NCBI GenBank assembly: GCA_040218535.1
Contig: JAVJRG010000012.1
Coordinates: forward strand, 1,302,001-1,366,000
DNA from: Lacipirellulaceae bacterium
GTDB lineage: Bacteria > Planctomycetota > Planctomycetia > Pirellulales > Lacipirellulaceae
Reading direction: 5' to 3'
Length of the DNA: 64,000 bases
In this document: piece after piece, positions 1,350 through 63,507 of the stretch
Numbering within the stretch: the first letter of the stretch is position 1
Layout of the letters: each line of letters starts with the position of its first letter
The notes under the pieces: model-generated
Database searches by the model: none
The model's input: only the letters and a program-made list of their open reading frames with translations
What the model was told of the DNA's origin: nothing
Position numbers and translations under genes: made by a program

Positions 1350-1892
1350 TTATTCTGACCCCGGCTCCGACCTTATTTGGATGCCGTTGCGTACCCGTTT
1401 CTGGTATTCAGAAAAGCCAGGAACAGGTTGACTGCTATCGAGATGAATGCCGATGGTCGAAAAATCGCCTTTCGCCTTCACGACTTCTCGCCATTGCTGC
1501 CTATCGAAAGCATGATAATCTCTGGCGTAGGAAATGGAGCGTCCCTCAATGGCTGTTATCTCCAGTATCAGGAATTCTGGCTCATCGATGAGTCTGGTGA
1601 CCTTTCCTGTCTGACGGTCAACTTCGACCGGCAAGCTCATGTGCAACTCATAGCGACCGCCGAACAAGAACTCGCTACGCCACTCAACACGATTGGGCTT
1701 TTCGTAATTGGTCGTGTAATGCCACGCTGGACCAAAGAGATCGTCTATTTGTCTCGCTGCAAGAATCTTGGCGTAGCCCGAGGTCACCATCGCCTTCTGT
1801 GACGGCCACTTTTCTGCCTTAGTGAGAAAATTCTGTGTGCAGCCCAGCAACAGCATGCACAAGGTAGCCGTGCATGCAGTACGTGTGGACAT
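1350..1892 (-). CDS. putative lipoprotein of unknown function
   Basis: 180 residues. The N-terminus is a short lipoprotein signal with lipobox LLLGC (Cys18), so the protein is probably lipid-anchored and exported. AAGGTG before the ATG supports the start. The rest is a small mixed-charge domain with no motif I recognise. It lies 11 bases downstream of the oxidoreductase gene (1904-3382) on the same strand and is likely cotranscribed with it. No function can be assigned. Confidence 0.75.
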   Translation of the reverse strand: MSTRTACTATLCMLLLGCTQNFLTKAEKWPSQKAMVTSGYAKILAARQIDDLFGPAWHYTTNYEKPNRVEWRSEFLFGGRYELHMSLPVEVDRQTGKVTRLIDEPEFLILEITAIEGRSISYARDYHAFDRQQWREVVKAKGDFSTIGIHLDSSQPVPGFSEYQKRVRNGIQIRSEPGSE

Positions 1893-1903
1893 AATGGCAC
1901 CTT

Positions 1904-3382
1904 TTATGGCTTGGTGAGCGCCTGCTTGATCTGAATCACTTCCTGGCGTTCCGGCAGCTTCTTGTAGTAGTCGTCCAGTGGATAGCAGCCACTGATGATG
2001 CCGTGTCGAGGGGCAGTTGTGCAGTCGCTGAAGGTGCGGCAGATGAGTTTTCGCTTCAGTTTTCCCTCACGGGAGACGTCCAGCGGAAGTTCGGGATAGC
2101 TTAAGACCATTCGTCCTAGGCCGACAAAATCCACCCAGCCGTCTCGCACGGCAGCTTGCCCGACATGGGGCAAGTAATCTTGCAGATACGAATAGCCACT
2201 ACCAACCAGCGGAACGTACCCGTGGCCGACTTCGGAGAGCGCGGTTTTGCACTCGCGCACCATCTGCAGGTGACGGGCTACGCCGAGCAGCGGGTCTTCG
2301 GGAGGGAGGTAGCCGTCACTGGGAGGAAAAGCAGCCGGGCGGAGCAAGTGGGGAATGTAATAAGGGCTGCCGCAGCTTAGGTTGAGCAGCGAGACTCCGT
2401 GCTCGATGAGGTTGTTCATCAACTCAAGCGGTTCGGCAAGGTCGTACTGCATGGGATCCTGAGGATCCACGCCGAAGCCGAATTCATAGGGCAGAAGTTG
2501 CTCATACTCCATCGGCTGACCCGTTTCGCGACTCGTTCGATAGGGAATCGAATCGAAGACGCTCAAGCGAACGCCGATGATGAGGTCCGGCAGCTCTTCG
2601 CGTACGCGGTCGATGATGGAAAGCAGCAGTCGACTTCGCCCCGCGAGGTCGCCGCCGTATTTGCCTGGCCGCGAGCGTGCACTGAGGAACTCGTGCAGCA
2701 AGTATCCGTGGCACGATTTGATGTCGACGAAGCGGTAGCCAACCTCTGATGCTAAGCGTGCCGCGGTGACATAATCTTCGATAAGTCCTTCGAGCTGCTC
2801 ATCAGTCCACACGATCGAGTCGTCTTTGGGATCGATGCCAAACTTTTCATCGAGCAACGGGTGATGGTAGGCGATTCGTGGTTCCCACTTGTGGTGGTCG
2901 CTGGGTTTACAGAAGCGACCGGAGTGGGTTAGCTGCAAACCGACAAGCAGGTCGTCGGTACTTAAATCTTGCTCGCGATGACCGACAAGCAGTTCGTCCA
3001 GTAACGCTTTCAGTCCCGCGCGGTTACTTTCCAGGGCAAGGGTTTGATTGGGGTTTGCCCGTCCATCAGGCCTTACCGCTGCCGCCTCGCCGCCCCAGAT
3101 AAGCTTCGCTCCGCTTTGGCCAAACCGCTTCCAGCGACGAAGTGTGCGTTTAGACGGGCTGCCGTCAAGATTCGCATCCCAGCCTTCCATGGGATGAATG
3201 CACCAGCGATTACCAACTTTGAAATCGCCAACCTTGATTGGTTGAGCTAGCGGCGAACCTTGCTCCGCAGTGAGAATCTTCTCATCGAGAGGTAGCGAGA
3301 TTCCGAGTTCAGCAGCATGCTGGGAGAGTTGCTCGACCCTCTTGAGTTGAGCGACCTTTGGGAACGAAAGGGTGTCTGACAT
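1904..3382 (-). CDS. old-yellow-enzyme family NADH:flavin oxidoreductase
   Basis: 492 residues, cytoplasmic. This is an FMN-dependent TIM-barrel oxidoreductase of the old yellow enzyme / 2,4-dienoyl-CoA reductase superfamily, which reduces activated C=C bonds with NAD(P)H. Visible family features are GGEAAAVRPDGR near residue 100, LTHSGR near 155, the CHGYLLHEFLS active-site segment near 225 followed by YGG, and the phosphate-binding VGLGRM near the C-terminus. An extra tail contains three cysteines (C-x6-C-x11-C) reminiscent of the cluster-binding region of dienoyl-CoA reductases, but there is no second pyridine-nucleotide domain. The first 40 residues are an additional extension. The substrate is unknown. 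It sits between two lipoprotein genes with short gaps. Confidence 0.88.
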   Translation of the reverse strand: MSDTLSFPKVAQLKRVEQLSQHAAELGISLPLDEKILTAEQGSPLAQPIKVGDFKVGNRWCIHPMEGWDANLDGSPSKRTLRRWKRFGQSGAKLIWGGEAAAVRPDGRANPNQTLALESNRAGLKALLDELLVGHREQDLSTDDLLVGLQLTHSGRFCKPSDHHKWEPRIAYHHPLLDEKFGIDPKDDSIVWTDEQLEGLIEDYVTAARLASEVGYRFVDIKSCHGYLLHEFLSARSRPGKYGGDLAGRSRLLLSIIDRVREELPDLIIGVRLSVFDSIPYRTSRETGQPMEYEQLLPYEFGFGVDPQDPMQYDLAEPLELMNNLIEHGVSLLNLSCGSPYYIPHLLRPAAFPPSDGYLPPEDPLLGVARHLQMVRECKTALSEVGHGYVPLVGSGYSYLQDYLPHVGQAAVRDGWVDFVGLGRMVLSYPELPLDVSREGKLKRKLICRTFSDCTTAPRHGIISGCYPLDDYYKKLPERQEVIQIKQALTKP

Positions 3383-3408
3383 GAAAGCTCTGGGGAGGGG
3401 GCGTTCTT

Positions 3409-3948
3409 CTACTTTGCGGATTCGAGAGCGTACTTGAACCAGACTTTCTCAGACTCGTCGGTGAGTTCTGTCTCGAGTTGCCATCTGTCATCCAGGTAGG
3501 TCAGCTCGTACTTCTTTGTTTCGCTTTCCGAACGATGGAGGATCGGTTGAATCTCCGCATTCTCCGGCGCCTCGCCCGTGAGGGGATTCTCGCCAGATCG
3601 GAAAGAGATAAACCGTTTCGTCACGACGTTGATTTCCCCTTTCGGTAGCGTTTCCGACGCTTCTTGAGGTGCTTCGGAGGTTTCCTCAGGGGCGAGGAAG
3701 CGGTGGCTGATTTCGCGCTTGACAATCAGCCCAATATCACTGGTGGAGTCCTTGGTTAAGTCTTTCAGGCGGCCGACGAGCACTTCGAGCTTTTGCTTCG
3801 GCGTCAGCTTCGGGGCGGGAGCGGCAGGCGGCGCGGATTGCTCGCATCCTAGGGAAACAACGATCAGAAGCACGCCAAGGTAGCCGTTTGCTTGAGTCGA
3901 CCCCTTCGTGCGTTGTGCCTGAGAGAGTAGTGCCTGAGAGAACCGCAT
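3409..3948 (-). CDS. putative lipoprotein
   Basis: 179 residues from the ATG at 3948; a TTG five codons upstream is a weaker alternative. A hydrophobic segment ends in the lipobox VVSLGC (Cys35), then a Pro/Ala linker precedes a soluble domain of about 130 residues without recognised motifs. The long N-terminal region before the hydrophobic core is unusual for a lipoprotein signal, so the true start could lie further in. It ends 26 bases before the oxidoreductase gene and follows the acidic DLF-motif gene by 65 bases, so the four genes from 5807 to 1350 may form one transcription unit. Confidence 0.65.
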   Translation of the reverse strand: MRFSQALLSQAQRTKGSTQANGYLGVLLIVVSLGCEQSAPPAAPAPKLTPKQKLEVLVGRLKDLTKDSTSDIGLIVKREISHRFLAPEETSEAPQEASETLPKGEINVVTKRFISFRSGENPLTGEAPENAEIQPILHRSESETKKYELTYLDDRWQLETELTDESEKVWFKYALESAK

Positions 3949-4013
3949 GCTGAGACGTATCAAGTTGCTCCTCGACGCTAATGCCGCGCCGGGAGCTAGG
4001 ATCCTGAGTGGGG

Positions 4014-5807
4014 TTATTCAAACAGATCGAACGGATCGTCGTCGGCTTCTTCATCTTCATCGGACGAGGTCTCTTCCTCATCAGATTCTTCCGAGGTGTC
4101 GTCGGTTGTTACGCCTTCCTCGGTTGGTCCTTCAGCGACCTCTTCCTCAGCCACTTCCTCTTCGGCTGACTGTTCGTCGGTGCCTGTCTCTTCAGGCATC
4201 TCTTCCTCAGCGGATTCTTCTTCAGAAGCTTCGGAGGAAGGCGATTCAGCCGGCTCGTCGAAGAGGTCGAACTCTTCCGCTGCGTCCTCTTTCATCGGCG
4301 GAGCTTCCTCCTCCAAGTCGAAGAGATCATCAACTGGAGCCGGCGCTGTTTCGCTTGGCGCTGGGAAATCAGCAGGGGCGGGAGGCAGGTCTTCAGCGGG
4401 CGAGAACGCCTCTTCGGGACCTAGTTCAAAAGCTTCGTCAGCGGCAGGAGGAGTTGCTATCCCTGGGCCAGTCGGCGGCATGATTTCTGGAATTGAAATC
4501 TCTGGCTTGGGAACCATATCGCCCACGGCACGTCCCAGGATGCCCAGCAACTTCTTCGAACCCACCTTACTTGCTTCAGGAAGTTCTGCCTCAGGGGCTT
4601 CTTCCGTGGGCACTTTTTCTTCGCTGGTAACCTCTGCGGCTGCCGGTTCGTCGAGATCAAACAGATCGTCGCTGGCGGCGACTTCCTCGAGCGAGTCTGC
4701 TTCGAGCATCTCCTCGGCAGTGTCTGCCGTAACTGGGTCTTCTGTGGCTGGGTCTTCCGTAGCTGGCTCGTCACTTGGTGCTTCGTCCGTCTCGGTACTG
4801 AAGAGATCGTTGCTTGCTCCTAGATCATCGGCTTCAGCTTCGAATTCAGGTTCTGCGTCAAAAAGTGAATCGGCTGCTTCCGGCGTCGCGGCGGGAGACT
4901 CGGCCTCCATTTCTGCGGTGTCTGGCTGAGCAGGTTCTGCAGGTTCTTCTGCAAAGAGATCAGCCGCTGGCTCAGGGTCTGGCGTTGCTTCTGTCGTTGT
5001 TGCTGGCTCAGCGGGAGCTTCAAACAGATCGAAAGCTTCGGGCTCTGCAGTTTCAGCCTCTGGGGTTTCAGCGGCCAGCTCAGGTTGTGGAGTCGCAGCC
5101 GGTTCGGTCGGTGCGACTTCTTCCTTTGGCGTCTGAGTGGTTTGTACGGGGATTTCCTCGACGGCCTGTTGTGGTTCGACAGGGCGAGTCGCGGGGGCTA
5201 CCTCAGAAGGACCTGCTTCAGCATAGCTGCCGGGTACGACTTGAGTGTCAGGCGTAATGATCTGCACGCTAGAGGAATCGAGCAACTTTTCGACAGGCAC
5301 CTGAACGGGTTTGCGCAACACATATGTCTCGCGCTTTTTCAGGTTTTGAGATCGCGTCTGTTGTTCCTGATTCATCGAGTGAGATGCCGTTAGTTGCCCT
5401 TCGCGCCGGATGCTCTCAAGCGTTCTTCGATTGGCACCTTGAACACGCATGAGCGCTTGGTTGATTCCTCGGGCGGACCCCGGGTTACGGGCTTCCATCG
5501 CGGCACCCAACTGCATGTCCTGCTCTGCCTCGTACTGACGACCTTGTTGAAGTCGCGCAAGGCCACGGAAGTAGTAGGCTCGTGGATCGCGCGAACCCGC
5601 GTTGATCACTGCCGTTAGCTGACGATCTGCTTCAGCAGACCGCCCCGAGAAGTAGGAGTGAATACCGCGCCCCATCACAGCCGAAACCGAAGAGCGCCCA
5701 GCCGAACTGCGTTGTGACCATGCGGTCGCTACGTCGAAGGTCGTCAGCGTGACGCAGGTGATGACGAAAAGCAATTGTGCAGGTTTGCGAGGAAAGGTCA
5801 GTGGCAT
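4014..5807 (-). CDS. exported acidic protein with TPR-like N-terminus and repeated DLF motifs
   Basis: 597 residues from the ATG at 5807, which has GAGGTG upstream; an in-frame TTG five codons earlier is less likely. Residues 1-29 form a signal peptide. Residues about 40-120 look like a TPR pair (a YYFRGLARLQQG segment). The remaining 450 residues are Pro/Glu/Ala/Asp-rich and predicted disordered. Within them the tripeptide DLF recurs at roughly 260, 283, 334, 381, 494, 514 and 594 (SLF at 314), mostly in acidic contexts, and the chain ends DPFDLFE. The regular spacing suggests short binding motifs for a partner. No function is known. Confidence 0.75.
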   Translation of the reverse strand: MPLTFPRKPAQLLFVITCVTLTTFDVATAWSQRSSAGRSSVSAVMGRGIHSYFSGRSAEADRQLTAVINAGSRDPRAYYFRGLARLQQGRQYEAEQDMQLGAAMEARNPGSARGINQALMRVQGANRRTLESIRREGQLTASHSMNQEQQTRSQNLKKRETYVLRKPVQVPVEKLLDSSSVQIITPDTQVVPGSYAEAGPSEVAPATRPVEPQQAVEEIPVQTTQTPKEEVAPTEPAATPQPELAAETPEAETAEPEAFDLFEAPAEPATTTEATPDPEPAADLFAEEPAEPAQPDTAEMEAESPAATPEAADSLFDAEPEFEAEADDLGASNDLFSTETDEAPSDEPATEDPATEDPVTADTAEEMLEADSLEEVAASDDLFDLDEPAAAEVTSEEKVPTEEAPEAELPEASKVGSKKLLGILGRAVGDMVPKPEISIPEIMPPTGPGIATPPAADEAFELGPEEAFSPAEDLPPAPADFPAPSETAPAPVDDLFDLEEEAPPMKEDAAEEFDLFDEPAESPSSEASEEESAEEEMPEETGTDEQSAEEEVAEEEVAEGPTEEGVTTDDTSEESDEEETSSDEDEEADDDPFDLFE

Positions 5808-51006: not shown

Positions 51007-51555
51007 TCAGTTCAGCGAAGTTTCGGGCTGCTCTTCCTCGCCGACGGGAATCGCCCGTCTGCCGTAGGCTTTGTTCGTTTTGTTGTAGGCCTCGCTAAAA
51101 GCCACGGCATCTTCGCCGGTGAATTTGCGATCAAGGGTACGCAGGAAGTCGTTGTGCAGGTAGAGATGCACGACATGATCAGCTGGCGGCCCTTCCGGTT
51201 CCTTTTTCTCAGGCTCCTTCTCCTCAGTTTCAGCCTCTTCTGAGGGTGCCTCCTTTTGGTCCTCTTCGGAGTCAGCTTCGACGTCCTTCTTGCTGGCTCG
51301 CTTCCGTTTGGGCTTTTCGTCTTTGTCGTCTTTCTTCGACTTCGCCGTTTTCCGGGGGGACTTCTTCTTGGGCGCTGCCTTTTTCTTGGCCGGCTTCTTC
51401 TTTGGCTTGGCTGTTTCCTCGACCTCTGAGTCTTCCTCGATCTCGGAATCGACTTCGGAATCTTCGAGTTCAGAGTCTTCCTCGATTTCGCTGTCATCCT
51501 CATCGACGAGATCGAAATCCCCGCCGAAAAGATCGTCTTCGTCGTCGTACGCCAT
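51007..51555 (-). CDS. highly charged protein with acidic and lysine-rich blocks
   Basis: 182 residues, no signal peptide. Residues 1-48 are acidic (Asp/Glu/Ser, with DDLFGGDFDLVDEDD); 49-92 are a Lys/Pro/Ala block (KPKKKPAKKKAAPKKKS) like histone H1 tails; 93-125 acidic again; 126-182 a short globular segment (VVHLYLHNDFLRTLDRKF...AYNKTNKAYGRR). The layout suggests nucleic-acid or ribosome contact, but no family was recognised. GAGG upstream of the ATG. It is convergent with the sulfatase gene, 8 bases apart. Confidence 0.72.
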   Translation of the reverse strand: MAYDDEDDLFGGDFDLVDEDDSEIEEDSELEDSEVDSEIEEDSEVEETAKPKKKPAKKKAAPKKKSPRKTAKSKKDDKDEKPKRKRASKKDVEADSEEDQKEAPSEEAETEEKEPEKKEPEGPPADHVVHLYLHNDFLRTLDRKFTGEDAVAFSEAYNKTNKAYGRRAIPVGEEEQPETSLN

Positions 51556-57327: not shown

Positions 57328-58011
57328 ATGTCTGACACGACTCCCCTCGACACCTCGCTCCTTCCGCCGCGGCAGATGTTTCGTTTGGCCGTGGATGTGC
57401 AGCGGTGGGAGCCAAAGAAGGGAGAGACGGTCGAGAAAATCAAACTGAGTGAGGAGTACCGATTGCCGGAGTTTGGCGAGCTTGACGGACAGCCGACCAT
57501 CGCCGACGTGCGAATGGGCTGGAGCGTTAAGGGGCTTGTTTGGCAGGTGGCGGTTGAAGGCAAATCGCAATTACCCTGGTGTCGGGAAGGGCGGCTTGAA
57601 GAAAGCGACGGGCTGCAAGTCTGGGTCGATACGCGGGCGACACTCAATGTGCATCGGGCGAGCCGTTTTTGCCATCGCTTCTGTTTTCTGCCGCGAGGCA
57701 CAGGACGAGGCGAGGCGGAACCGATCGCTGAGCAGATCCTCATCAATCGGGCCCGCGAAAATGCCAGGCCAACGCGTCCACGCGAGTTACAGATTGCCTC
57801 CAAGGTCACCAGTAAAGGTTACACCCTGACGGTGTTTGCGATTGCCGACGCGCTTGGTGGCTACGATCCGGTCGGCCAACCACGACTCGGCTTTACCTAC
57901 GCGCTGCTCGATCGCGAGAAGGGTCTGCAGACGTTGGGCCTCGGGCCTGGATTTCCCTATGAGGAAGACCCCTCGTGTTGGGTCGAATTGCGGCTCGTTG
58001 ACGAATCGTAA
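57328..58011 (+). CDS. CBM9-like/DOMON-like protein
   Basis: 227 residues from the ATG of MSDTTPLDTS; a TTG 27 bases upstream is weaker. The fold hints (MGWSVKGLVWQVAVEG, then ESDGLQVWVDTRATLNVHRAS, split here) are those of carbohydrate-binding family 9 / DOMON-like beta-sandwiches in which an acidic DGLQVWVDTR segment is typical. No signal peptide, so unlike most relatives it would be cytoplasmic. Function not assignable. Confidence 0.72.
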   Translation: MSDTTPLDTSLLPPRQMFRLAVDVQRWEPKKGETVEKIKLSEEYRLPEFGELDGQPTIADVRMGWSVKGLVWQVAVEGKSQLPWCREGRLEESDGLQVWVDTRATLNVHRASRFCHRFCFLPRGTGRGEAEPIAEQILINRARENARPTRPRELQIASKVTSKGYTLTVFAIADALGGYDPVGQPRLGFTYALLDREKGLQTLGLGPGFPYEEDPSCWVELRLVDES

Positions 58012-58178
58012 AACCGCGCTCCGCTTGGTTGGAATCTCTGGCAAGGATTCTTATCTTTCAGGATAAAAGACGCCGCCTCAAAGATGCTATCGTCAATAGC
58101 AGCGTTGACTGGAGAATCAGCTTCTCCTCTGAGATTGAATTGCTAGAGAGTGCTGTTCCACGCGGAGCGTGGAGTTAC

Positions 58179-58216
58179 AAAAAAACGCCAGCCAACAAAT
58201 GTGTTGACTGGCGTTT
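58179..58216 (-). terminator. rho-independent terminator of the HC-x4-C repeat gene
   Basis: On the minus strand AAACGCCAG..CAACA / TGTTGG.TGGCGTTT followed by TTTTTTT, 26 bases downstream of the stop codon at 58242. Confidence 0.92.
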
Positions 58217-58241
58217 AATGTTTCTACTTTTGGCGTGGAGA

Positions 58242-58601
58242 CTAGGCGACCAACTCTTCCTCGTCGTGGTCGTGATCATCGCCTTTGCAGTCGTCTTTGC
58301 CGCAGTGAGCCAGAAGTTCTTCTTCCTTGTCGTGATCTTTGCCCTTGCAGTCGTCTTTGCCGCAGTGAGCTAGAAGTTCTTCTTCCTTGTCGTGATCCTT
58401 GCCCTTGCAATCATCTTTTCCGCAGTGGGCGAGTAGCTCTTCTTCTTTGTCGTGATCTTTGCCCTTGCAATCGTCTTTGCCGCAGTGGGCGATCGTGTTT
58501 TCTTCCTTGTCTTCCTTCTTCTTGCTCTTGGCAAAGTCGGCGGAGGCGAAGCAGAAGCTAGCGAGTGCCAGCACAGCGAGAGAGTAGCTAAGCGTTTTCA
58601 T
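58242..58601 (-). CDS. secreted protein of four exact 20-residue HC-x4-C repeats
   Basis: 119 residues. Signal peptide 1-21 (ending CFASA). Residues 24-38 are Lys/Glu-rich. From residue 39 the unit HCGKDDCKGKDHDKEE plus ELLA recurs with period 20 exactly four times (His-Cys at 39-40, 59-60, 79-80, 99-100); the last unit changes to DDHDHDEEE. Each unit offers two Cys, two His and many acidic residues, a likely metal-binding surface. The 60-base DNA repeats are nearly identical, so copy number may vary. I know no family with this repeat. Monocistronic, with its own terminator. Confidence 0.8.
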   Translation of the reverse strand: MKTLSYSLAVLALASFCFASADFAKSKKKEDKEENTIAHCGKDDCKGKDHDKEEELLAHCGKDDCKGKDHDKEEELLAHCGKDDCKGKDHDKEEELLAHCGKDDCKGDDHDHDEEELVA

Positions 58602-58796
58602 GTTTCTTAAGTCTCCAGGTTTATGGAAGCAACCTAGCAGAGCAGAAGCGCTGAGCCGGGCAGTCCCGTCCGATTGCGATAAAACCCATTGTAGGCAATA
58701 TCGATTCGCGAAATTAGTGAGAATCAGTACAAATTGCCCGAAGTTGGCTGATTTTGTCCGATTTCTCGGTTTGCTAGCGAAGGGCTTACCGTGTTT

Positions 58797-59936
58797 CTAG
58801 CGAACTTCTAACATCCGCTCCAAGGCGACCAGCGACCACCGGGCCGTTTCCTCGTCGACTTCGATCGTGTTCACTGGCGTGCCAGCGGTAAGATTCTCCA
58901 AAGTCCAGCAGAGATGTGCGAGATCGATCCGGTACATCGTGGCACACATGCAGACCACCGGCGACAGGAAGTGGATTTCCTGCTCGGGGTGATCTTGTTT
59001 GAGACGATTTACCAAATGGAGCTCGGTGCCAATGGCCCACTTCGTGCCAGCAGGGGCAGATTCGACGCACTCGATGATTTTGCCCGTGCTGCCCGACTCG
59101 TCGGCTAGCTCGAAGACCTCCTTCGGGCACTCGGGATGAACGAGGATTTTGATCCCCGGATGCTGCTCGCGGAACATCGCCACATGCTCTGGTTTGAACA
59201 TTTGGTGAACGCTGCAATGGCCCTTCCAGAGGATCACTTTGCTGCCCGTGATCTGCTCTTCGGTGCTTCCACCGAGGTCTTCAGCGAACGGATCCCACAC
59301 GGGCATCTGCTCTTCGGTGATATTCATTCCTAAGGCGGTGTTCCGACCTAGATGCTGATCAGGAAAGAACATCACCCTCTCGCCCCTCTGGAACGCCCAC
59401 TCAAGCGCCGCCTTCGCGTTGCTACTGGTGCAGACGATACCGCCGTGTTGGCCGACGAAGGCTTTTAGGCTGGCTGCCGAATTGATATAGGTGACGGGGA
59501 TGATTTTCTCGGTGTCGATTACCTCGGAGAGCTCGTCCCAGGCGTCTTCAATCTGGCGGATGCCTGCCATGTCGGCCATCGAGCAGCCGGCAGCCATGTC
59601 GGGAAGCATCACGCGGACACGCTTGCCATTGCGTTCGGCGAGCTTCTCTGGACGGTTGGCTAGGATGTCAGCCGTCTCAGCCATAAAGTGAACGCCACAG
59701 AAGGCAATCGCCCGGCAATCGGCGCTGTCGGCAGCCAGTTGGCTCAGCTTGTAGCTATCGCCGGTCAGGTCCGCGCGGGCGATCACTTCGTCTTGCTGGT
59801 AATGGTGGCCGAGGATGAGCAGTTCAGGCCCCATCTGCTGGCGGACGGCCTCGATACGCTCAATCAGCGCATCGTTTTCCAGCGACTTGTAGGGCTTCAG
59901 TTCGTGAGTTGGTGCAGGTTCGGCGAGAGTGGTCAT
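58797..59936 (-). CDS. nadA: quinolinate synthase
   Basis: 379 residues from the ATG at 59936; another ATG at 59978 would add 14 residues. NadA condenses iminoaspartate with dihydroxyacetone phosphate to quinolinate in NAD synthesis and carries a [4Fe-4S] cluster. Characteristic ILGHHYQQDEVI near the start, FCGVHFMAETADIL and CTSSNAK with cluster Cys, and HPECPKEVFELAD with another are all visible. nadB and nadC are not adjacent. Confidence 0.95.
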   Translation of the reverse strand: MTTLAEPAPTHELKPYKSLENDALIERIEAVRQQMGPELLILGHHYQQDEVIARADLTGDSYKLSQLAADSADCRAIAFCGVHFMAETADILANRPEKLAERNGKRVRVMLPDMAAGCSMADMAGIRQIEDAWDELSEVIDTEKIIPVTYINSAASLKAFVGQHGGIVCTSSNAKAALEWAFQRGERVMFFPDQHLGRNTALGMNITEEQMPVWDPFAEDLGGSTEEQITGSKVILWKGHCSVHQMFKPEHVAMFREQHPGIKILVHPECPKEVFELADESGSTGKIIECVESAPAGTKWAIGTELHLVNRLKQDHPEQEIHFLSPVVCMCATMYRIDLAHLCWTLENLTAGTPVNTIEVDEETARWSLVALERMLEVR

Positions 59937-60093
59937 TGCGGGAGAATACGCTATTGGGGTCGGTTGCCAGGGCTTCATTGTAGAAGAACGGTCTGGCCGA
60001 GGACAGCTAGCATGCCAGGAGGGCTAAGGCTAGCAACGACTTTACCTTCTGGGAAAGTTTTACCTGCGTGAGGGCCGATAAGTAACAGAGACC

Positions 60094-60480
60094 ATGAGTA
60101 CCGACGCCCCCACTGCCGAAACGAACTCCACGGAAGCTGCGCTGCCAGCGTATACCCGTAGCTTGCTAAAAGTGAGCCTGCCGGTCCGTGTTCAGTTGGC
60201 CGAGAAGAAGGAAAAAGTGAAGAACGTCGTAGAGATGGGGCCGGGCACCATTCTGACCTTCACGAAAAGATGCGATGAGCCACTTGAGCTGTTCGTTGAT
60301 AATCAGCCGATAGCCGTCGGTGAAGCAGTGAAGTTGGGCGACAAGTTTGGCTTTCGGATTCATGAGATCACACTTCCTAGCGAGCACTTCTACCTGGTGC
60401 GGCGTAAGGCCGAGGAGCGTGTTGAGGGTGGTGACGGCGAAGACGCAAGCGTCGCGGAAGAAGCTGGTGAGTCGTCGTAG
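60094..60480 (+). CDS. solitary FliN/SpoA-domain protein
   Basis: 128 residues. Residues about 25-105 match the SpoA (FliN/FliM C-terminal) domain: LLKVSLPVRVQLAEKK, then GPGTILTFTKRCDEPLELFV, then VGEAVKLGDKFGFRIHEI. SpoA domains build the flagellar C-ring or the type III secretion sorting platform. No flagellar or secretion gene is adjacent. The N- and C-terminal ends are acidic and low-complexity. It may be a stand-alone flagellar component or a reused scaffold. Ends 3 bases before a convergent gene. Confidence 0.85.
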   Translation: MSTDAPTAETNSTEAALPAYTRSLLKVSLPVRVQLAEKKEKVKNVVEMGPGTILTFTKRCDEPLELFVDNQPIAVGEAVKLGDKFGFRIHEITLPSEHFYLVRRKAEERVEGGDGEDASVAEEAGESS

Positions 60481-60483
60481 TGT

Positions 60484-61335
60484 TTAGCCGTCGAGCTTGC
60501 TCGGCGCTGAGTTTGCACTCGCTTCGGTTTCCTTATCATCGCTCTCTAAGTTCGGCCACCAGTCACGTTTCCAGAAATCGTCTTCCCAAAGGTTGCCGGT
60601 TTCGATCACGAGTCGATCGCGCTTCTTGTCGATGGCTCGGTTAAGCTTCTTGGTAAGCTTCGGCCCGGTCAGTTCGCTCTCGATATGCTTACGTAACGCG
60701 TCCCCCAGTTCGCGAACCAGGGGGCCTTTGGCGTTACTGACACGTCGCAGGTTCAACTCGACGAGTTTCAGGCGCGCGTCGGTAATTCTTGGATCAAGCG
60801 CGAGGCCCGGTTTGTCCTTGACTTTGCTGGCCGTGAAGCCTAGTTCGCAGTCGAGGTCCAATTCGACACGCAAGTCACCGACGATTTCTAGTGCAATCAG
60901 GTGAACGCCATAGTTGTAGACTTTCGCACGTGCCCAAGCATCGAGCGTTGTCGCAACTTTCAAAGTGAATCCGATTCGCCCTGCTTCTAGAGAGCGCAGA
61001 CCAGTGATTGCAACCCTTAGATTCTCTTCTGGTTCGACGAGCTTGATTCGGTAGTGTTTCCACGTGCCGTGGTTGACCTCTTTCTTGCGACGGCGGAGTT
61101 TCATTTTGAAGCCCTTTCCTTCGGTCCGCAAGCCGGTCGTGATCCGCTTCGTTGTGCCCCAGTCCTTCTGTTTGTCGTAAGCTTCGGGGATGGCTTGCCG
61201 GATGAGGGTGCTAAAATTCTTGGCGAGCGCTTCTTGTGCGGGGTTTTCGTTCACCGCGACGCTTGCGGTTTCGCCGTGCGTAAAGTTTACCCATGAGCAA
61301 GCGAGCAAAACGGTGGCAAGTGAGCGTTTGAGCAT
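60484..61335 (-). CDS. exported hypothetical protein
   Basis: 283 residues with a signal peptide (1-22, ending HGE). The middle is beta-rich with Lys/Arg-rich strands (KGFKMKLRRRKKEVNHGT); the C-terminal 80 residues are helical and charged. No motif was recognised. It sits alone; downstream is the convergent SpoA gene. Confidence 0.7.
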   Translation of the reverse strand: MLKRSLATVLLACSWVNFTHGETASVAVNENPAQEALAKNFSTLIRQAIPEAYDKQKDWGTTKRITTGLRTEGKGFKMKLRRRKKEVNHGTWKHYRIKLVEPEENLRVAITGLRSLEAGRIGFTLKVATTLDAWARAKVYNYGVHLIALEIVGDLRVELDLDCELGFTASKVKDKPGLALDPRITDARLKLVELNLRRVSNAKGPLVRELGDALRKHIESELTGPKLTKKLNRAIDKKRDRLVIETGNLWEDDFWKRDWWPNLESDDKETEASANSAPSKLDG

Positions 61336-61491
61336 AGCAAGCGTGTTAGAGTTCTCCGGCGAGCTGTTAGCTCGCGGCTACCTCATTAAAGCTGAGAGCT
61401 GACAGCCGAAAGCTGATAGACATAAACATGTCAAGCGGCGATTCAAGCGGGCATTAGAATTACGTTCAATAGCAACTTGTCGTTCGCCAAC

Positions 61492-61532
61492 AAAAAAGAA
61501 CCTGCCCCAGGCCCGAAAGCCCGAGACAGGTC
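61492..61532 (-). terminator. rho-independent terminator of the Cys-rich gene
   Basis: On the minus strand ACCTGTCTCGGGC-TTT-... pairs with the GGGGCAGGT side and is followed by TTCTTTTTT. It lies about 85 bases downstream of the stop at 61618. Confidence 0.8.
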
Positions 61533-61617
61533 CTCAGAGGGGGAATCCAAGTGATTCCTTAGCTCGTCGAAGTGTCCTGCATGATGCCTATTCGTTCGAC
61601 GAGTCGATTATCCATTC

Positions 61618-62769
61618 TTAGCGAACAAAGCTAGCGGAAACCACTTTGCGAGGTTGAGCGATCCGTGCGTTTGGATCGGCAACTGGCGCGGGTGGGATTG
61701 GAGCAGCTTCGGTTGGGACGCTGACTTCAGCGGGAGCCGAGGAAGCAGCAGAAGCACCAGCGGTGCATCCGCAGCTTGGAGCGGCGCCACAGCAGCCATC
61801 GTTGCAACCGCAGCTTGCTTCGCAGCAGCCGTTGCTGCATCCGCAAGAAGCTTCACAGCAACCGTTCGAGCATCCGCAAGAAGCTTCGCAGCAAGAAGAC
61901 TTGCAGCACTTCTTACGACCGAACAGCTTGCTCAAGAAGCAGCTACGCTTTTTCTTGCAGCAGCAGCTCGAAGCGCAACCGCAGCTTGCTTCGCAGCAAC
62001 CGTCGCTGCATCCGCACGAGGCTTCGCAGCAGTTGTCACCGCAGCAGCCATCGCCACAGCAGTCGTCGGCACATCCGCAAGAAGCTTCGCAGCAGCAGTC
62101 GTCACCGCAGCAGCCATCGCCGCAGCAGTTGTCTGAGCAGCCACAGCTTGCTTCGCAGCAGCAGCTTTTCTTGCGATTGAAGAGCTTGCTCAAGCAGCAG
62201 GTACGCTTCTTCTTGCAGCAGCAGCTTTGAGCAGCGCAACCGCAGGAAGCTTCGCAGCAGCTGTCACCGCAGCAGCCATCGCCGCAGCAGTCGTCAGCAC
62301 ATCCGCAAGAGGCTTCGCAGCAACCGTTACCACAGCAGCCATCGCCGCAGCAGTCGTCGGCGCAACCGCAGGAAGCTTCGCAGCATCCGTCACCGCAGCA
62401 GCCATCACCACAGCAGTCGTCTGAGCATCCGCACGAGGCTTCGCAGCAGCACTTGCTCTTACGGCTGAAGAGCTTGCTCAAGAAGCAGCTACGCTTCTTC
62501 TTGCAGCAGCAGCTCGAAGCGCAACCGCAGGAAGCTTCGCAGCAGTTGTCGCTGCATCCGCAAGAGGCTTCGCAGCATCCATCGCCACAGCATCCATCGT
62601 CACAGCCGCAGCAGTCGTCGGCACAGCCACACGACTTCTCGCAGCAACATTGGGGCTCACAGGAGTCGCAGCCACAGCCGCAACCGAGCATTTTGTCCAT
62701 CAAGCCGCCGTAGCTTTGGCTTGTCAGACAGATGCTCAACATGAGCGCTCCTAACAGTTTACCTTTCAT
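61618..62769 (-). CDS. secreted, extremely cysteine-rich repeat protein
   Basis: 383 residues, AGGAGA before the ATG. Signal peptide 1-22. By my count about 109 Cys (28 percent). The body is made of two short alternating units: CCEASCGC (thirteen times) and CCGDGCC-like units, joined by SDD/ADD. Three basic segments of the form KKKRxCxLSKLFxRK occur at about 90-105, 186-201 and 272-287. The last 50 residues are an ordinary Pro/Ala/Val-rich tail. No Cys-free globular domain is present. Either a heavily disulfide-linked wall protein or a metal sponge is possible; function unknown. Strong terminator follows. Confidence 0.88.
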
Positions 62770-63507
62770 CGATCAACGTCTCCTATAACGTTGGGGACAC
62801 TTAAGGTGGGTGTGTCGGAAGTCGTCGACTTCGCTGGTATGCTCCGCACTCTCGCGTTGGTGTGTCGTGTTGACTTTGAGCGAGTGGCGTGGCGCCTTAT
62901 GGGTTGGCAGAGCGGCGGGAGTCGGGCTACCCAGCTCAAGTGGGCAACTTCGACACGTGGTTCTCATTGCGGCCGTCCCCGGGCAGTGTGTCGAACCTGG
63001 TCGAGCCAATCCATGACTCGAAACTCATCTGGGCCAGGAGTCCAACACTCGCAATGAGAGGTGGGCGTCGCCTCGTTCCTTTGCTGCACCTCGCTGTGAA
63101 CTAACGGTGCACCATGAAGCGACATCACGGACTATCGGCCCTGAGAAAGCAGGCGCTTGAGGATGCGGAAGTAATTTTCAGCAAGTGGTTTAGGTCAACT
63201 GTTGGGTAAACTTTGCCGGTCCGCGAAGCGGTTCTTGCGATACTGGTTGTCCGTTGGCGGAGCTGTGCGAGCGAGTAGAAATAGGGCGGAAAAGCTGCTA
63301 TGGTTTACCTAAGTTGACGTGCAGATTCGATCGTCTTTGTCAGTTTACGCAGCAGTCGGAAGAGTCGACTTCCGGGGAAACCATGCCCTAATCGTCACAG
63401 CTTCTCACTAGCAGCACGTCCGCTTGTCGAGTCATGCACCAACCAAGACAATAGTCCCTCCGGCATTCACGCCCCCGCCTTACCTACCTCTCCCCGAAGA
63501 GCTTGCA
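62770..63507. other. intergenic region between Cys-rich and quinoprotein-like genes
   Basis: 738 bases without a credible gene. Short frames have no homology or ribosome site. A weak inverted pair (GTCAACTGTTGGGTAAAC near 63194 and GGTTTACCTAAGTTGAC near 63303) may be a degenerate repeat. It should contain both divergent promoters. Confidence 0.4.

Follow-up and report, generated by a model that had tools for sequence, protein, structure and literature searches.

The locus described here raises the question of what a small, export-like protein, built from tandem units that carry cysteine, histidine and acidic residues, does in a member of the Lacipirellulaceae. An initial annotation had proposed a secreted metal-binding array of four equal units, separately terminated and possibly sharing a role with a Cys-rich protein encoded nearby. 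In the window, that is, the whole stretch of 64,000 nucleotides that was analysed (genome G000), the open reading frame of the repeat protein was confirmed by translation, and its features are collected in Table 1.

Table 1. Features of the repeat-protein gene and its flanks, in window coordinates.
Feature	Coordinates	Strand	Basis
Repeat-protein gene, 119 aa	58242..58601	-	Open reading frame and translation; relative at the same place in congener G001
Signal-peptide-like hydrophobic stretch at the N-terminus (residues 1-19, with an assumed cleavage site)	58545..58601	-	Hydropathy
Lysine/acid-rich linker, residues 20-38	58488..58544	-	Read from the translation
Unit 1, HCGKDDCKGKDHDKEEELLA	58428..58487	-	Repeat finding and codon comparison
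Unit 2, protein identical to HCGKDDCKGKDHDKEEELLA	58368..58427	-	Repeat finding and codon comparison
Unit 3, protein identical to HCGKDDCKGKDHDKEEELLA	58308..58367	-	Repeat finding and codon comparison
Unit 4, HCGKDDCKGDDHDHDEEELVA, C-terminal variant with DHDHD; ends in LVA, the end of the protein	58245..58307	-	Translation
15-pair hairpin resembling a terminator, with a T tail	58183..58216	-	Hairpin scan
15-base block TGCCTACAATGGGTT, possible promoter, containing a -10-like TACAAT	58683..58697	-	Common to congener G001

The protein opens with the hydrophobic sequence MKTLSYSLAVLALASFCFA, followed by the charged linker and four units of period 20. Its export-like start is borne out by a 12-residue hydropathy maximum of 2.5 beginning at residue 8, and maxima of 2.3 to 3.0 lie near the N-terminus in all ten relatives; export of the window protein is predicted from hydropathy alone. 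The gene also appears to have a terminator of its own, as had been claimed, since the hairpin and its T tail lie just downstream on the same strand (58216-58183). The scan returned three such sites where 1.5 were expected in shuffles, and the other two have stems of 5-6 pairs. Upstream, TGCCTACAATGGGTT is the sole block of at least 10 bases common to the window and G001, and it begins 96 and 77 bases upstream of the ATG, respectively; a consensus scan found no sigma-70-type promoter. The core of this block, CCTACAAT, is absent from the examined stretches of seven of the eight other carriers, and in the eighth (G035) it occurs only far from the gene. Both the repeat gene and nadA (NadA confirmed by Pfam) are on the minus strand, 195 bases apart, with nadA upstream. 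The repeat gene faces a gene at 57328-58011 on the plus strand. The 227-residue product of the latter matches no Pfam family at E <= 0.001 and is found in 36 of the 43 family genomes, representing a conserved unnamed family. Elsewhere in the window, a very acidic frame of 182 residues (MAYDDEDDLFGGDFDLVDEDDSEIEED...; 51007-51555, minus strand) has no Pfam match at E <= 0.001, and the region 57500-63200 yielded no Rfam match at gathering scores.

The tandem array is real and coding. Tandem Repeats Finder places it at 58269-58511 with a period of 60, 4.1 copies, 88% matches and a score of 344, and the protein compared with itself at a lag of 20 gives 61 identities in 99 positions, whereas the best lag between 5 and 59 averaged 17 and reached at most 26 identities in 2000 residue shuffles. 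The description of four units with identical period and two His each applies to units 1-3, which are identical in protein; unit 4 differs, being one residue longer and having a third His. Likewise, the 60-base DNA units, said to be nearly identical, vary in 9 of 60 columns among units 1-3, all nine at codon position 3, so these copies are not fresh. Pairwise comparison of their codons counts 19 synonymous and 0 non-synonymous differences (pS 0.61, pN 0), and variation solely at third codon positions means that the unit has been kept by selection.

The protein sequence of the unit is under selection within other genomes as well. The first four of the five units of G023 show 39 synonymous and 3 non-synonymous differences, with all of the 12 variable columns falling on third codon positions, and the seven units of G019 show 124 and 20 (pN 0.024, pS 0.72). 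For the three units of G034 the figures are 27 and 14 (pN 0.078, pS 0.75), a count in which the last unit, being shorter, contributes unaligned positions and so makes the non-synonymous figure too high. In G035 (4 to 0) and G007 (2 to 1) the differences are too few for a judgement. The counts exclude unit 4 of G000 and unit 5 of G023, whose lengths differ; with unit 4 included, over unaligned positions, G000 gives 33 synonymous and 15 non-synonymous differences. All these pairwise counts are not independent of one another, and they cover G000, G023, G019, G034, G035 and G007, with G001, G062, G064 and G065 left out.

These counts bear directly on the view that the array is a tandem repeat with rapid turnover and little function, retained as a side effect of slippage and unequal crossing-over. 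Patchy presence of the gene and the change of unit sequence and number between species, described below, are what such a repeat would display. The strong synonymous excess among units in G000, G023, G019 and G034 speaks against it, as does the recurrence of one plan in several genomic settings, and this reading is already disfavoured as highly improbable.

Relatives of the repeat protein occur in 10 of the 43 Lacipirellulaceae genomes, belonging to 3 of 14 genera, in a search with a ten-row profile at E <= 1; the same number is obtained at E <= 1e-5. As a single query against 59 genomes, the window protein finds only congener G001 besides the window itself, and the G001 protein finds matches in 5 of the 43 family genomes. 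A six-row profile added G007, G023, G034 and G035, the relative in G062 came from reading the surroundings of the 227-aa gene in 30 loci, and the profile made from all ten relatives confirmed them and added none. Weak family matches at G001:C1:3921000, G023:C3, G024, G019:C88 and G011 were dropped after inspection of their frames, the minus frame of G001:C1:3921000 having been inspected through an acidity filter only, which nothing passed.

Outside the family, no convincing member was found in draws from the order (396 genomes), the class (397) and the phylum (392). The 12 matches of the order draw at E <= 0.01 are the ten carriers plus G120 and G344, both of which were discarded for internal stops, the G344 frame also being antisense to a long open reading frame. 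The five matches of the class draw are four carriers plus G568, discarded as a longer acidic protein without Cys units, and the sole match of the phylum draw at E <= 0.001 is the window itself. These draws overlap and sample the larger groups, and no more than 10-11 candidates were scored in any genome; distant members may therefore have escaped detection. A scan of genome contigs returned no relative with the window protein and one with the G023 protein, an identical protein in Bythopirellula polymerisocia Pla144. Plasmid sequences contain no match, PDB sequences none at E <= 1, and the family is not described in the titles and abstract openings of the open literature searched.

The expected variation in copy number holds at the level of species, with 1 to 7 units among the ten relatives. 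Counted by eye, there are four units in G000, one each in G064 (a protein of 57 aa) and G062, seven in G019, three in G035, and five and three in the two Bythopirellula genomes, G023 and G034. G001 has two units plus degenerate stretches, G065 has about three, irregular, and G007 is irregular with five Cys-bearing segments. The array of G019 (L006 1468-1944) partly alternates DCGH and DCGN unit types, as duplication of a two-unit block would produce. A separate observation concerns the Bythopirellula pair, where a tract of about 3.9 kb (L053, about 1593-5500, against L054) has 98-100% DNA identity and the next 3 kb 71-86%, reflecting either recent exchange or an assembly matter.

All relatives follow a common plan, consisting of a hydrophobic stretch, [H/D]-C-G, usually a second Cys, and an acidic tail. 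A typical unit reads [H/D]-C-G, x(1-3)-C, an acidic stretch, and a short hydrophobic close ending in a small residue or Val; a hydrophobic stretch before the first unit and a similar one at the end of the protein are present in 10 of 10. After residue 25, every relative contains Cys and has a net charge between -10 and -52. The HC-x4-C motif singled out at first is not general: C-x4-C spacing is found in the window protein and G062, whereas C-x2-C, the commoner form, characterizes the regular units of G001, G019, G023, G034, G035 and G064. Some units of G007 and G065 have no second Cys, and His is not universal, with none after residue 25 in G035.

The units are held constant by selection inside a genome, yet are replaced between species. 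Mean unit identity within genomes is 0.90 in G000, 0.94 in G023, 0.89 in G034, 0.89 in G019 and 0.96 in G035, and the best match of these five in another genome is 0.58-0.74, except for the Bythopirellula pair (1.0). G065, with two compared units 0.48 alike and a best outside match of 0.67, and G001, with 0.74 on both measures, also entered with two units, depart from this pattern; G007 was left out. The last unit carries DHDH in the window protein, G001, G023 and G034, and last units are more alike than first units in five of the six pairs among these four genomes (0.58 vs 0.40 for G000-G023), the G023-G034 pair being reversed (last units 0.88, first units 1.0). This small sample suggests turnover among the internal units and retention of the terminal one.

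No model in Pfam or NCBIfam scores above its cut-off with the window protein or its nine relatives, which together make up a small family unmatched by the curated libraries searched. Below threshold, the Pfam matches of five of the nine relatives include zinc-ribbon, zinc-finger or RING models, mostly through CxxC pairs, such as Zn_ribbon_5 in G023 (24.0 bits against a cut-off of 29.3) and zf-RING_5 in G019 (23.7 against 27.9); DmmA-like_C in G019 comes closest to its cut-off (26.4 against 27.4), and the same scan of the relatives also yields unrelated models. The sub-threshold Pfam matches of the window protein include no zinc-type model. Its match to Csx1_HEPN (PF09455), at 22.8 bits against a gathering score of 23, runs over the charged repeats and was taken as compositional. 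AlphaFold models both the window protein (ten-row alignment, mean pLDDT 46) and the five-unit G023 protein (alone, without alignment, mean pLDDT 45) as disordered, the sole helix in the low-confidence window model spanning residues 5-29. The two models would be compatible with a metal-free chelating chain and are no proof of it.

The repeat gene occurs in several genomic settings. In G001 it occupies the same place as in the window, between the 227-aa gene and nadA. G062 has it flanked by a relative of the 227-aa gene on one side and purK on the other, an arrangement that connects the window setting with the one around purE-purK in G023, G034 and G064. G007 and G019 have a common CYTH and SAM-synthetase setting (the CYTH gene of G019 judged by eye), and G035 and G065 a common alpha/beta-hydrolase setting. 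According to Pfam searches with 30 proteins of the window and loci, picked from a longer list, the named neighbours are mostly housekeeping genes, and no clear metal gene is among them. A succinate-dehydrogenase-like pair comes after the G023 repeat gene; the G064 gene has an Rrf2 regulator and a PAPS reductase in its vicinity, and the G065 gene a kinase and a gamma-glutamyltranspeptidase. In G023, a MacB/FtsX-like permease and an HlyD-like protein are encoded on the far side of purE, and similarity identifies close counterparts in G034 and G062.

With an exporter at hand near purE in these three genomes, the protein could be a multi-unit precursor, cut by a protease after each hydrophobic stretch (LLA, LVA, SFV and the like) to free metallophore or signal peptides of 17-25 residues. 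Such processing would account for the hydrophobic stretches that bracket the units in every relative, and the stretch before unit 1 is AVA in G007 and G019, which we take to resemble a signal-peptidase site. However, the exporter-like genes lie beyond purE-purK and are not seen in the other settings, the 30 scanned proteins include no Cys-modifying enzyme or plausibly linked protease (the gamma-glutamyltranspeptidase lies near the G065 gene), and single-unit members exist. The enzymes of known modified precursors were also not found, with MNIO in 0 of 10 carriers and DUF2063 in 0 of 43 genomes, which leaves a precursor of this kind rather improbable. Somewhat more doubtful again is the idea of a polyprotein whose products would be secreted peptides, metallophore-like or signalling; a protease recognising the hydrophobic stretch at the end of each unit would free near-identical Cys/His/Asp peptides, the number of units setting the yield; if true, it would be a multi-core peptide system on a general export route without an MNIO enzyme.

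The window also encodes, at 61618-62769 on the minus strand, an export-like and extremely Cys-rich repeat protein with CCEASCGC blocks, by its composition more striking than the repeat protein itself. It has no Pfam or NCBIfam match at E <= 1. At E <= 1e-5 it has matches in 38 of the 43 family genomes, some of which may be compositional because its composition is strongly biased. G034, a one-contig genome, has its best match about 3.7 Mb from the repeat gene and a weaker one 0.7 Mb away. In each of the seven remaining carriers that do not belong to the window's genus, another contig holds the best match, although for G019, G035, G064 and G065, whose repeat genes are on short contigs, the distance cannot be judged. 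A weak match in G062 shares the contig of the repeat gene at about 139 kb. Close spacing of the two genes is limited to the window genome and congener G001, so their proximity does not show a common role, and the suggestion of one is not supported by the distributions either (38 vs 10 of 43 genomes; not seen side by side in the eight carriers outside the genus).

That the family possesses this far more Cys-rich, export-like protein would agree with a role of the repeat protein as an envelope or matrix cross-linker, in which the paired Cys residues form disulfides between chains and acidic tails bind calcium, giving a disulfide-linked layer or holdfast matrix. The export-like start, the two Cys of most units, the acidic tails and the hydrophobic stretches between units would all suit such a role. 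A general wall part would not be confined to 10 of 43 family genomes, however, and the single-unit relative of G064 would be a poor cross-linker, which makes this role possible, if unlikely.

The best explanation, to which about an even chance (roughly 0.5) is given, is that the protein, exported and intrinsically disordered, works as an extracytoplasmic tandem array for binding and buffering metal ions, with unit number determining how much it can hold. In general, an exported chain in which Cys, His and carboxylates recur at regular intervals would be expected to take up soft and borderline metals. Each unit would offer soft ligands, two Cys in C-G-x(1-3)-C and often a His beside the first, and add a hard acidic tail; the array would thereby hold zinc, copper or the like, its capacity scaling with unit number as internal units are gained and lost. 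A protective or storage role may follow from such buffering. In favour of the metal-binding array are the third-position-only variation in G000 and G023 with the synonymous excess in G019 and G034, the single plan of the ten relatives, all with Cys and net negative charge after residue 25, and the sub-threshold zinc-type matches in five of nine relatives. Against it count the lack of a recognised metal gene among the 30 proteins scanned from the window and loci, the nearest themes being Rrf2 and PAPS reductase (G064) and gamma-glutamyltranspeptidase (G065), the non-conserved His and the G007 and G065 units without a second Cys, the hydrophobic stretches between units, which are not needed for chelation, the Cys residues, which may be oxidised once exported, and the outcome of the sub-threshold scan, with unrelated models among the matches and no zinc-type model for the window protein itself. 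The by-eye counts of 1, 2, 3, 4, 5 and 7 units form a natural dose series across species, and since it includes cultured Bythopirellula, the metal question is directly testable.

Among known systems, bacterial metallothioneins of the BmtA/SmtA type are similarly small and Cys- and His-bearing, and a metal buffer is likewise proposed here. The known ones are folded cytosolic proteins, whereas the repeat protein has an export-like start and tandem acidic units, and no metallothionein model is among the Pfam matches.

A closer likeness is to the Buf_EGKCG/oxazolin precursors, which the text describing them (PMC12452194) presents as exported proteins with a variable number of short, 17-residue Cys-bearing repeats, and whose products, the oxazolins, are reported there to bind copper. 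The present family differs in that its regular units measure 17-25 residues and carry long acidic tails; the EGKCG motif is in none of the ten repeat proteins as read, GKC occurring as HCGKC or DCGKC. A beta-helix model is reported for a mid-size Buf_EGKCG member in the same text (PMC12452194), whereas the two models obtained here are disordered. Sizeable shares of bufferin genes are described there as unlinked to MNIO genes, so only a genome-wide absence of MNIO counts. MNIO (PF05114) is found in none of the ten carriers and in 2 of the 43 family genomes (the non-carriers G022 and G027), and the partner DUF2063 (PF09836) in none of the 43, while the same searches detect them in 2 and 1 of 14 control genomes, respectively. 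Three of the carriers have a genome completeness below 90% (G019 72, G065 83, G064 87), and for these the absence carries less weight. The 'CxxxxC' MNIO precursors, compared by their description in that text (PMC12452194) only, share with the window protein an export signal and the C-x4-C spacing, and differ from the family in that C-x2-C is commoner among the relatives and no MNIO was found in the carriers. Given that distribution of MNIO and DUF2063, the repeat protein is on this evidence not an MNIO-modified RiPP, although it may work like one. If it does bind metal, it would be an exported modular buffer, with its capacity set by repeat number and seemingly operating without the bufferin/oxazolin enzymes.
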